A DNA stretch of 29,296 bases. Source: a virus. The notes under the pieces are model-generated. The model had not been told where the DNA came from. It saw only the letters and a list, made by a program, of their open reading frames with translations, and searched no databases. Shown piece by piece: positions 1-8,531 of this stretch. A program made the translations under genes and the position numbers. The stretch's first letter is position 1. Each line of letters starts with the position of its first letter. The stretch is taken from positions 1-29,296 of IMG/VR virus record IMGVR_UViG_3300044707_000042, one strand, 5' to 3'.

Positions 1-1139
1 TTGGTTAAATGCGTAAACACGGCATACCTACAAGCATCCATCAAGTCATCATTTGCCTTTACAGGTTCTTCTATTACGTTATCGTTTTTATCCTTTTTCC
101 ATTTGTAAGACATAAACTCCCTTCTTAAGTTTTTGCTATTGTAGTGCAAGTTTATTGGATAAGATTTCATTTTAACTATTCCTGCCCATACATCCTTTTG
201 TGCTGGTTTAATATTAAATCCTTGTCGGTAAAGTTCCTCAATAGATTTAGGCTCGGCTGCATCCGCATAGATTGTTGCTCGTTCTGGTAGCTTTTCCTTA
301 ATCAATCTTGATAGGTCGCTTAAAGTCAATCCGCTTTGATAAACTATTTCCTCAAAGTAGTTTTGTCCTTCATAGTGCGTAACCTTAACTAAAGCAGCTG
401 GGTGAACGTAACCAAAGTCCAATCCATAGAATACATCCCCATCTGGTGCTTGGTCATATTGTTTCCATTGAGTATAAATAATTTCCTTTGCAGAACCTCG
501 TTCCCCTAATCCGTAAACTTTCCACATAAAGTCATCTGGTAAGTCCTTGTATTGCTCAATGTTTCTTATTTGGCTATCGCTTAGATTTGAGATGTTATTT
601 AGGTAGGTTGAATGGATGCGCTTATTCTTTGGGTTATCAGCTACTTCATACACCCAAGAAATAAAGTCTGCTGGATTCCAATCTAAGAATGATTGTCCAG
701 TAGTACGAATTAAAAGCTGGTCAAACAAAGCCTTGCTAATTAGGTTTGCCTCGTTTACGAATAATATATCCCTTGCTGGTCCTTTTGCTTTGTCTGGGTC
801 TTCTAAGCCAAATAACTCTATGTACGAGCCGTTCTTAAACGTATAAATAAAATCAGTATATCTAAAATCCTTTTCATCCCAGATGTTCCATTGTTCAAGT
901 ATGTTTTTAAAATCCCTATAAACTCCACGCTTGATATGTGGTAAGGAATGAGATACGCACGAAATTCTTGTATTAGGCTTGGTTAAAGCAATGTGAATTA
1001 ATAATTGAACAACCGAATAGCTTTTGCTTGACCTTGACCCACCTTCATTGCATATTATCGGATAACCTTCCTCGTAAGCCTTTTTATTGGCATAGAATAC
1101 AGGTGTAGCCTTAATCTTTAATTGGTTGACAATCTGCAT
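1..1139 (-). CDS. terL: Terminase large subunit, 3'-truncated by the window edge
   Basis: Motor and nuclease that packages phage DNA into the prohead through the portal. 379 codons are visible, from an ATG at 1139 to the left edge. The start reads MQIVNQLKIKATPVFYANKK. A Walker A-like GGSRSSKSYS lies near residues 33-42, a Walker B-like DILFVNEAN near 125-133, and the RNase H-like nuclease motifs YGLDFGY, IYADAAEPKS and NDDLMDACRYAV follow towards the end. This is the PBSX/phage_terminase_3 type. Family members are usually a little over 400 residues, so only a short C-terminal piece is missing. The gene overlaps the end of terS by 29 bases. Identification is firm; the exact start is less so because no clear ribosome site is visible. 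Confidence 0.93.
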   Translation of the reverse strand, partial: MQIVNQLKIKATPVFYANKKAYEEGYPIICNEGGSRSSKSYSVVQLLIHIALTKPNTRISCVSHSLPHIKRGVYRDFKNILEQWNIWDEKDFRYTDFIYTFKNGSYIELFGLEDPDKAKGPARDILFVNEANLISKALFDQLLIRTTGQSFLDWNPADFISWVYEVADNPKNKRIHSTYLNNISNLSDSQIRNIEQYKDLPDDFMWKVYGLGERGSAKEIIYTQWKQYDQAPDGDVFYGLDFGYVHPAALVKVTHYEGQNYFEEIVYQSGLTLSDLSRLIKEKLPERATIYADAAEPKSIEELYRQGFNIKPAQKDVWAGIVKMKSYPINLHYNSKNLRREFMSYKWKKDKNDNVIEEPVKANDDLMDACRYAVFTHLT

Positions 1140-3401: not shown

Positions 3402-4058
3402 TTAAAACAATTTTTGTTGCATTTGATGTTTTTTTAACCTATCTAATGCTTTTTCGTAATATTCTTTATCTAACTCACAAGCAGTTAAATTAAATCCGTA
3501 ATCGTGGCAACCTATTGCTATTGAACCAGAGCCTAAATGTGTATCTAATATCTTATCTCCTTGCTTTGCGTATTTATCAAGCAACCATTTATAAAGTGCT
3601 ACTGGCTTTTGTGTTGGATGAATACGAACTTCTTTATTTTTCATATTTTGTTGTAACATTCCTTGCCATTTAAACTTATATTTCCTAACCGAAGTTCTAA
3701 ATGAAGTCCAAGCTAATTCACAATCAGCAAAATCAGTTTCGCCATTATCTTTATCCCATACTATCCAACAAGATGAATCATAAGGTATTTTACTAATAAA
3801 ATGATTAGCACCCCAAATAATTTGATTTTTAGATATTCTTATTAATTCATTAAAATAATCAATATCAGGAGAATTTATATCATTTCCTGAAAATGCTTTA
3901 TAATTTTTAGATATTGCAAATTTACCTCTGGTATGATTTTTTGACCCATCTTCGCCAATACCATATGGAGGGTCAACAATAGCTAAATCAAAGTATTTAT
4001 CTGGATAACGTGCCATAAGTAACATATTATCTTCATTTGTTATTTCTATATTGGACAT
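3402..4058 (-). CDS. DNA adenine methyltransferase (class beta)
   Basis: 218 residues. DPPYGIG at 29-35 is the catalytic motif IV; the AdoMet pocket THLGSGS is at 173-179, after HPTQKPVALYKWLL, the usual motif leading into it. The order IV then I marks class beta. Between them lies WIVWDKDNGETDFADCELAW, the typical strand-rich core. It probably makes N6-methyladenine. No target-recognition domain of notable size is visible, as in small phage enzymes. It is the second orphan methyltransferase of the window and is unrelated in its N-terminus to the one at 1482-2585. Confidence 0.9.
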   Translation of the reverse strand: MSNIEITNEDNMLLMARYPDKYFDLAIVDPPYGIGEDGSKNHTRGKFAISKNYKAFSGNDINSPDIDYFNELIRISKNQIIWGANHFISKIPYDSSCWIVWDKDNGETDFADCELAWTSFRTSVRKYKFKWQGMLQQNMKNKEVRIHPTQKPVALYKWLLDKYAKQGDKILDTHLGSGSIAIGCHDYGFNLTACELDKEYYEKALDRLKKHQMQQKLF

Positions 4059-4060
4059 AA

Positions 4061-4258
4061 TTATTTTTTCAATCTAACAACACATAATCTATCGTTATGC
4101 TTGTAGCGTTTTTTGTTTATTGGGTTCATATATGTCATAATAGTTTTATAGTCAGTACCTAAAAACCTTATCGCCTTTGCTATTGACCTAAACCATATTT
4201 CCTCTTTTGTATCTAAATAAATTAATTTAACCTCAATGTTATTGTCTATTCCTGTCAT
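4061..4258 (-). CDS. Small protein resembling a nuclease-associated modular DNA-binding motif
   Basis: 65 residues. The centre reads FRSIAKAIRFLGTDYKTI followed by KKRYKHNDRLCVVRL. This resembles the NUMOD1/IENR1 helix-turn-helix repeats found next to HNH and GIY-YIG homing nucleases (hydrophobic strand, then S-IAKA--FLG-----I, then K-YK). It may be a stand-alone DNA-binding module or a remnant of a homing nuclease. It overlaps the end of the PD-(D/E)XK gene by 20 bases and stops two bases before the methyltransferase start. The motif match is by eye only. Confidence 0.6.
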   Translation of the reverse strand: MTGIDNNIEVKLIYLDTKEEIWFRSIAKAIRFLGTDYKTIMTYMNPINKKRYKHNDRLCVVRLKK

Positions 4259-6129: not shown

Positions 6130-6227
6130 ATAAAATAGCCCTATCAAATCCCTCCTATGTTGCAGATAGGAGTTCATCTCAAGGGCAATAAGTTCTTAAT
6201 AGGTCTGCAACACCTAATACAAAAATA
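6130..6227 (-). promoter_or_regulatory. Structured leader of the replication gene, possible pseudoknot
   Basis: The 102 bases between the HTH gene and the replication gene hold no ORF. On the minus strand a -7 like TATTTTTG (6227-6220) is followed by a leader of roughly 85 bases. CTCCTAT (6172-6166) and ATAGGAG (6158-6152) form a 7-bp hairpin with loop CTGCAAC (6165-6159). The whole loop is complementary to an upstream GTTGCAG (6211-6205); as a rival helix the match extends to 9 bp (6212-6204 with 6166-6158). GCCCT (6186-6182) and AGGGC (6142-6138) can close around the hairpin. No good -33 element was found for the promoter. Confidence 0.5.
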
Positions 6228-6229
6228 CA

Positions 6230-6424
6230 CTAATTAACCGAATACTGTGCTACTTGTTTCTTATTTTTTAGCTTAACAATGGTAGTTTTTATGTTCATAC
6301 CATCATTTCTAAGGTCTGCTATTCGTGCTGCTAATCTAAAGCATCCGAACTTATTTAGGGCATCAATAGGGGTTAACTTTCTACCTTTATTTAGGTAGTT
6401 TGCGATTTGTTGGTTTTGGCTCAT
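6230..6424 (-). CDS. Small helix-turn-helix protein (HTH_39-like)
   Basis: 64 residues. KGRKLTPIDALNKFGCFRLA followed by ARIADLRNDGMNIKT is the pattern of the small winged-helix family PF14090 found in many phages: two helices, recognition helix around FRLAARIADLR, and a beta wing in the remainder. It probably binds DNA as a regulator or accessory replication factor. It overlaps the upstream gene by 38 bases; its ATG has an A-rich leader (AAAAACTTACAACTATG), which supports this start. Confidence 0.75.
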   Translation of the reverse strand: MSQNQQIANYLNKGRKLTPIDALNKFGCFRLAARIADLRNDGMNIKTTIVKLKNKKQVAQYSVN

Positions 6425-8093: not shown

Positions 8094-8531
8094 TTAAATA
8101 AGCACATTTAAGTTGAAAACATCCTTTTTTATGGTATCATCAAACTTATTTGACAATTGACCCCTAATCTTTTGGATTGAGTGTAAAACTGTTGTCCTAT
8201 CCCTATTGAAGATTTGTGCTATTTCCTCGCCATTTAATTCGGTTTTTTCCTTAGTTAAATACATTGTCATTTGCCTTGCTAAAGTAACCTCCTCGCCTCT
8301 ATATTTGGACATCATTTGTCCATACTTAATTTGATAGTAATTGCACACTTTTTCGGCTATTTCAATCGCATACTCCTTTTGTTGTTCTTTGTCCATTCTT
8401 ATTGTTTTTATGTTTAAATGTTTGTCTAATAAATCCTTTAATTGATTTATCTCTTGCTTTAGTTTTTTGTTCTTTTCTCGCAAAACCTCTATTTCAAGTT
8501 CTGCCATATACGTTTTGTGTACTTCTTTCAT
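8094..8531 (-). CDS. DnaA domain IV-like DNA-binding protein with coiled coil
   Basis: 145 residues. Residues 8-40 are a leucine-rich coiled coil (LREKNKKLKQEINQLKDLLD). Residues 55-125 match the DnaA DNA-binding domain IV: YGQMMSKYRGEEVTLARQMT, MYLTKEKTELNGEEIAQIF and NRDRTTVLHSIQKI, the last equivalent to the DnaA signature RDHTTVLHA. The AAA+ ATPase part of DnaA is absent. It probably binds DnaA-box-like sites, as initiator or as a competitor of host DnaA; the coiled coil would allow dimerisation. It is joined to the upstream gene at 8531 by an overlapping start and stop. Confidence 0.82.
   Translation of the reverse strand: MKEVHKTYMAELEIEVLREKNKKLKQEINQLKDLLDKHLNIKTIRMDKEQQKEYAIEIAEKVCNYYQIKYGQMMSKYRGEEVTLARQMTMYLTKEKTELNGEEIAQIFNRDRTTVLHSIQKIRGQLSNKFDDTIKKDVFNLNVLI

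Follow-up and report, generated by a model that had tools for sequence, protein, structure and literature searches.

A conserved kissing-loop leader RNA, probably a control element, upstream of replication and nuclease genes in uncultured phages

Introduction

In IncI plasmids a pseudoknot in the leader of repZ reportedly activates translation of the replication initiator, and an antisense RNA is said to block this pseudoknot. The phage leader described here resembles it in two respects: close to the start codon of a replication-initiator mRNA a leader loop takes part in long-range pairing, and the loops diversify between relatives. It differs from the IncI type in that loops of 6–9 nt kiss completely, in having no leader peptide, Shine-Dalgarno site or conserved antisense promoter, and in also serving genes that do not encode initiators.

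Other described systems share single features with this element. In phage T4, gp32 binds the pseudoknot in the leader of its own gene 32, and in both cases a pseudoknot lies at the 5′ end of the mRNA of a phage replication protein; unlike gene 32, however, unrelated proteins follow the same leader here, which makes autoregulation by the encoded protein less likely. The RNAI/RNAII kissing complex of ColE1 is intermolecular and its 7-nt loops pair over their full length, as do the 7-nt loops of our element, in which the anatomy is intramolecular instead. The put RNAs of HK022, which modify RNA polymerase and do not depend on a set spacing to a start codon, are likewise structured phage RNAs at the very start of a transcript, whereas the element studied here combines a fixed distance to the start codon with kissing hairpins (a literature search for put RNA returned nothing). 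Leader RNAs of replication genes are therefore known; what is new, to our knowledge, is that two hairpins which kiss over their whole loops lie between the promoter and the start codon.

Results

Anatomy of the leader

The DNA analysed is a phage record of 29,296 bases from IMG/VR, referred to in its entirety as the window. Among isolate phages its terminase is closest to Bacteroides phages (about 40% identity), and Flavobacterium phages are also matched. The leader is flanked by a winged-helix gene (HTH_39, 6230-6424) and by the gene for an initiator of 245 aa, all on the minus strand (Table 1). The leader opens with P1, which a conserved linker (AACUUAUU) connects to P2 and P3; the loops of P1 and P3 form a kissing helix. 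From P2 outward, the interior of the P2/P3 arm comprises a 3x3 internal loop, the 2-bp helix P2b (6178-6177/6147-6146) and a purine-rich internal loop, UGAA (6176-6173)/GGAU (6151-6148), which leads to P3.

The sequence-only reading of this DNA had drawn the P3 hairpin, its loop, a complementary heptamer further upstream and the enclosing GCCCT/AGGGC pair, and we found all of them on the minus strand exactly where it had put them. The loop is indeed complementary to that heptamer, GTTGCAG; the heptamer, however, is not a free strand: it forms the 7-nt loop of another hairpin, P1, which that reading had missed, and the interaction is therefore a loop-loop kissing. The same reading had proposed a rival helix of 9 bp, which does exist in the window (TGTTGCAGA/TCTGCAACA) but is not conserved: complementarity was exactly 7 nt in 66 of the 78 distinct hits of the covariance model described below, and on these grounds we rejected a conserved switch between two folds.

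Table 1. Coordinates of the leader elements and of the downstream gene in the window.
Feature	Position	Strand	Basis
-7 promoter box TATTTTTG (Bacteroidota, TAnnTTTG)	6220..6227	-	Sequence; predicted +1 at about 6215
P1 hairpin: TAGGT 6216-6212, loop GTTGCAG 6211-6205, ACCTA 6204-6200	6200..6216	-	Sequence; two-sided changes in relatives
Single-stranded linker AACTTATT, P1 to P2	6187..6194	-	Near-invariant in the leader alignment
P2/P3 arm	6138..6186	-	P2 = GCCCT 6186-6182/AGGGC 6142-6138
P3 hairpin CTCCTAT/ATAGGAG (6172-6166/6158-6152), 7-nt loop CTGCAAC 6165-6159, kisses P1 loop	6152..6172	-	
U-rich spacer TATTTTATTT, P2 to start codon	6128..6137	-	T bias before ATG in leaders
Downstream gene: replication initiation protein, 245 aa	5390..6127	-	Pfam Lin1244_N PF14297, E 2e-8; phrog_2562 'replication initiation protein', E 2e-19

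Relatives found by RNA pattern and by covariance model

Taken on its own the window gives a modest signal. Its nested fold had a z-score of -1.77 and was matched by 10 of 200 shuffles; double hairpins whose 7-nt loops are complementary are expected at 0.235 per simulated window when both strands are counted. The case rests on the comparison with relatives, which puts the element far beyond what chance would be expected to produce. A reversed-sequence control was uninformative, since reversal keeps pairing and gave identical counts, and a Markov simulation was used instead (10 hits vs 323).

IMG/VR was searched with a pattern made of the linker, P2 and the U-tract, in which neither a loop nor a start codon was required, and this yielded at least 120 matches. 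Among the matches listed, loops complementary over at least 6 nt were present in 54 of the 57 distinct hits with enough upstream sequence, the three remaining hits being two chance matches (L156 and L191) and a broken contig (L197). Also among the matches listed, 80 of 82 distinct hits had an ATG 7–12 nt beyond P2, most often at 11 nt (47 hits), and the two hits lacking this spacing were the two chance matches without the fold. At the level of sequence, the element is linked in cis to the gene that follows.

A covariance model, R1, was built from 37 leaders, leaving out the window type and the type with a GCG/CAA internal loop and encoding no kissing pairs. It nevertheless recovered the window element at 60.1 bits (E 4e-10), and the P1 and P3 loops were complementary over at least 7 nt, with 19 different sequences, in 74 of the 78 distinct pooled hits. 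When instead the P1 loop of one hit was set against the P3 loop of another, 6 nt were reached in 118 of 4596 combinations. The four hits without scored complementarity were the broken contig L197, L085, which the model had mis-anchored and whose loops (CTCTGAC/GTCAGAG) do pair by eye, and the two weak hits L069 and L109. These last two (L069 6675-6748 and L109 9905-9978, both on the minus strand) have non-complementary loops and are possibly degenerate or chance copies. Nested folding retained both hairpins, P1 as well as P3, in 98 of the 101 distinct leaders. In a further, flexible scan the loop labels AAAAAT, TTATAAA and ATGCGAC were dropped as chance or antisense matches.

Covariation and strand

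The rows of one alignment, A2, had been picked for exact loop complementarity, which makes the kissing helix circular there, and other sets of rows were used instead. Across the 41 distinct rows of alignment A5, 96.0% of cells pair, compared with 72.3% in shuffles, which do not remove relatedness; sliding of the partners, which keeps relatedness, drops pairing to 34–55%. The compensatory changes in homologues that the sequence-only reading had named as a check were found: among the model-aligned hits, 15 of the 17 nested pairs had changed on both sides, including all four core pairs of P1 and 6/6 pairs of P3, and the covariation score was reached by 0/500 shuffles. Covariation thus shows, at the level of sequence comparison, a fold with a kissing helix of 6–9 base pairs. 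Moreover, in 36 distinct leaders whose loci had been picked by protein similarity, 30 cells were G-U and only 2 were A-C, from which it follows that selection acts on the sense RNA.

Relatives found by protein similarity

A tblastn search with the window initiator identified 56 loci, 52 of them with upstream sequence, and in 51 of these 52 the kissing leader lay immediately 5′ of the initiator. At locus L040 the leader precedes an HNH-like ORF, which in turn precedes the initiator. A second, profile-based search added 30 of its 80 loci, the rest being mostly duplicates or partial matches. With both searches combined, loops complementary over at least 6 nt were found in 80 of 82 loci, a count in which L404 (see below) was entered as paired, and in 42 of 44 distinct upstream regions; the two exceptions among the 82 loci were L040 and L405, the latter without a leader. 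The linker also occurs in these loci in the variant forms AACTTTTT, AACTCATT and AAAATATT. L013 and L014 encode initiators more than 90% identical to the window type, yet their leaders are of quite different sequence, which indicates that the leader has been exchanged independently of the protein.

Some divergent forms were also seen. At 1000-1087 (+), ahead of an MGKRFTDTEKW-type initiator, L404 carries what may be a very divergent relative of the leader, in which P1 with a 10-nt loop, a GTGGAT/ATCCAC pairing and an AGCCCC/GGGGCT stem can be made out by eye. Further leader types, with AACTTATTAGGG linkers, occur in L382 (1087-1170) and L391 (1415-1496, +), where the loops read ATGCGAC/GTCGCAT or GTCGCAT/ATGCGAC; ATGCGAC, dropped in the flexible scan, is also a genuine loop in loci from the profile-based search.

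Promoter and start site

In Flavobacterium psychrophilum the -7 box of the Bacteroidota, TAnnTTTG, occupies positions -12 to -5 (PMC9723704). The window box lies 3–4 nt upstream of P1. Of 101 distinct leaders examined, three had no box and two were too short, and in 91 of the 96 with a TAnnTTTG box P1 starts no more than 2 nt from the predicted +1.

The start site too is distinctive. The ten bases before the ATG are 85% T in 42 distinct leaders, which are mutually related and hence not independent samples, against 30% at 41 other gene starts of the window that we picked; an earlier set had passed a filter requiring T, and these statistics come from loci that protein similarity alone had selected. 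Adenine at -3, -6 and -12 was present in 9, 2 and 0 of the 42 leaders, respectively, compared with 25, 20 and 25 of the 41 other starts. In Flavobacterium johnsoniae, A at -3, -6, -12 and -13 is a positive determinant of initiation, whereas well-translated genes have U at -3 less often and this base is associated there with low ribosome density (PMC6847099).

Downstream genes, copies and distribution

The proteins encoded after the leader include replication proteins, namely Lin1244_N initiators, DnaD/O-like, DnaA-like (organizer), DUF1376-like primosomal and Prim-Pol/DUF3987 proteins, and also endonucleases of homing type, with HNH/NUMOD4 proteins, one marginal GIY-YIG match and one protein with NUMOD3 motifs, as well as DNA methyltransferases. 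The sequence-only reading had taken the region for a pseudoknot in the leader of a replication initiator; the structured RNA is real, and this description was too narrow, given that the element also precedes unrelated initiators, nucleases and methyltransferases. The sharing of one leader by unrelated proteins makes the encoded initiator an unlikely regulator and favours a portable element of expression control; autoregulation by the initiator was disfavoured as a candidate on the same ground, several unrelated protein families being preceded by the same leader.

When 36 longer records were searched as a whole, 35 had a match, usually one. The window has one good model hit, and most of its genes are without the element. 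Two records (G018 and G029) have a copy at each end, probably a terminal repeat. In several phages a second leader, with a different pair of loops, stands before an endonuclease gene, and the loop sequences differed in 5/5 two-copy loci of the flexible scan, a comparison of few independent cases in which three of the five loci carry the same pair of loops.

Other genes recur around the leader. The window encodes at 8094-8531 (-) a protein of 145 aa with a DnaA C-terminal DNA-binding domain (Bac_DnaA_C), and 79 of 117 loci have a similar protein on the upstream side of the leader. An ORF of 65–68 aa with a weak, sub-threshold NUMOD1 match (4061-4258, minus strand, about 1.5 kb downstream of the leader) has counterparts no more than 7 kb from the leader in 99 of 117 loci and is a putative candidate partner. 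Finally, two window proteins with DPPYGIG motifs (1482-2585 and 3402-4058, minus strand), one of which starts ParB-like, appear by eye to be N6-adenine DNA methyltransferases.

In the genome collection the strict pattern matched 64 stretches, 0/64 with the fold, and the best match of the model search had an E value of 0.008. The model, run with stricter filters, matched none of 299 genomes drawn from a single family around a Flavobacterium genome; a further set gave 0/5, and no leader match was found by DNA similarity among the INPHARED isolate phages. Within the collections searched, the element as recognised by these sequence searches belongs to uncultured phages, and all its carriers to date are phages whose hosts appear to be Bacteroidota.

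No match at gathering level to Rfam release 15 was found in the window, and three representative leaders gave only weak matches far below gathering, so a known RNA family was rejected. The literature searched, which included few of the subscription journals and no preprints, gave no description of the element, and the motif table of a survey of 104 candidate RNAs, in the part of that source available, shows no obvious counterpart (PMC2864571). Judged from these comparisons, evolution has preserved this leader in many related uncultured phages, and it is probably an RNA control element not described before.

Discussion

Our leading interpretation, on which we are evenly divided, is that this leader of about 88 nt is a phage cis-regulatory RNA whose kissing-loop fold acts as a translation gate at a poor start site. 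Transcription would start at the first base pair of P1, as the promoter box suggests; in the emerging RNA P1 would fold first, followed by the P2/P3 arm, after which the apical loops would kiss. The folded domain ends about 10 nt before the AUG, so that P2 would fill the landing place of the 30S subunit, and the spacer lacks adenine at -3, -6 and -12, where this base promotes initiation in Flavobacterium. Translation of the initiator, or endonuclease, would thereby be kept low or conditional, until opening of the fold, or a phage or host factor reading it, raised expression at the right stage. The comparisons show the fold, the strand that is selected, the arrangement of promoter and AUG and the exchange of the leader between unrelated genes; the direction of control, with repression as the default, and a releasing factor or any other ligand are what we infer. 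No alternative fold is conserved, and no route by which the gate would open can be read from the sequence. The replication and nuclease genes that follow the leader suggest no riboswitch metabolite. That the leader may adjust initiator synthesis, as had been proposed from the window, is plausible.

Two observations tell against a gate: translation may instead be promoted where a start codon is tightly folded, as is said of plasmid repZ, and a P1 at +1 is equally expected of a hairpin that protects the 5′ end. The main rival is accordingly a positive element, since leader pseudoknots reportedly activate initiator translation in IncI plasmids. In that case the kissing-loop domain and the U-rich spacer would recruit the ribosome, in an IRES-like manner, or would protect the 5′ end of the mRNA. 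The start of P1 falls at about +1, as in 5′-protecting hairpins, and a spacer rich in U throughout separates the fold from the AUG by a fixed distance, as if to place a ribosome. Most window genes do without such help, however, and U rather than A at -3 goes with low ribosome density in F. johnsoniae (PMC6847099), and we consider a positive role rather unlikely. A transcription attenuator, with the P2/P3 arm and the U-tract as an intrinsic terminator controlling read-through, would fit the terminator score (d'Aubenton formula): 77 of 101 distinct leaders scored above 0, compared with 24% when the hairpin was shuffled and the same tail kept, although the filter for leaders had demanded at least 3 T before the ATG, which makes the tail partly circular. 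The window-type leader, by contrast, scores -34.8, its U-tract being broken by an A, and is absent from a generic terminator scan; termination is thus not conserved, no antiterminator fold is conserved either, and the fixed distance to the AUG would be needless. Attenuation is possible for relatives with U6 tracts and not for the window leader, and as a general account it is improbable.

Control of the IncI type, in which an antisense RNA would block a kissing needed for initiator translation, has in its favour an anatomy alike in outline, with a leader loop pairing before an initiator and loops diversified between relatives. An antisense -7 box, however, is missing near the window leader, and with the sigma-A type consensus that was tested no conserved one was found in 99 leaders: boxes on the antisense strand lay inside the leader in 10/99, and a box was present in the first 200 nt of the downstream gene in 2/99, against 11.3 expected. 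We regard this kind of control as very unlikely. Equally unlikely is a stand-alone small RNA acting in trans and read through into the next gene; a promoter and a U-tract do closely flank the structured RNA, and small phage RNAs that pair by their loops exist (phi29 pRNA), but an AUG 7–12 nt downstream in 80/82, before unrelated genes, points to a role in cis. A DNA-level element, either an origin hairpin or an inverted repeat bound by protein, would explain a position beside the initiator gene; given the sense-strand G-U pairs with hardly any A-C, and the second copy before endonuclease genes in some phages, it is the most improbable of the explanations weighed here.

Returning to the translation gate, it is tempting, if doubtful, to go further and see in these leaders a phage-only class of portable kissing-loop gates, plugged before whichever initiator, endonuclease or methyltransferase fills the slot, with loops re-coded from lineage to lineage, and between the two copies of a single genome, to avoid cross-pairing. 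Were this true, the loop code could be a determinant of orthogonality, or even of incompatibility, between co-infecting phages. More generally, the element would represent a family of phage RNAs that has so far gone undescribed and whose covariation is unusually strong, linking promoter, kissing-loop fold and start codon within about 100 nt, in a phylum whose mRNAs are without Shine-Dalgarno sites and whose translational control is little understood, and its anatomy lends itself to direct tests.
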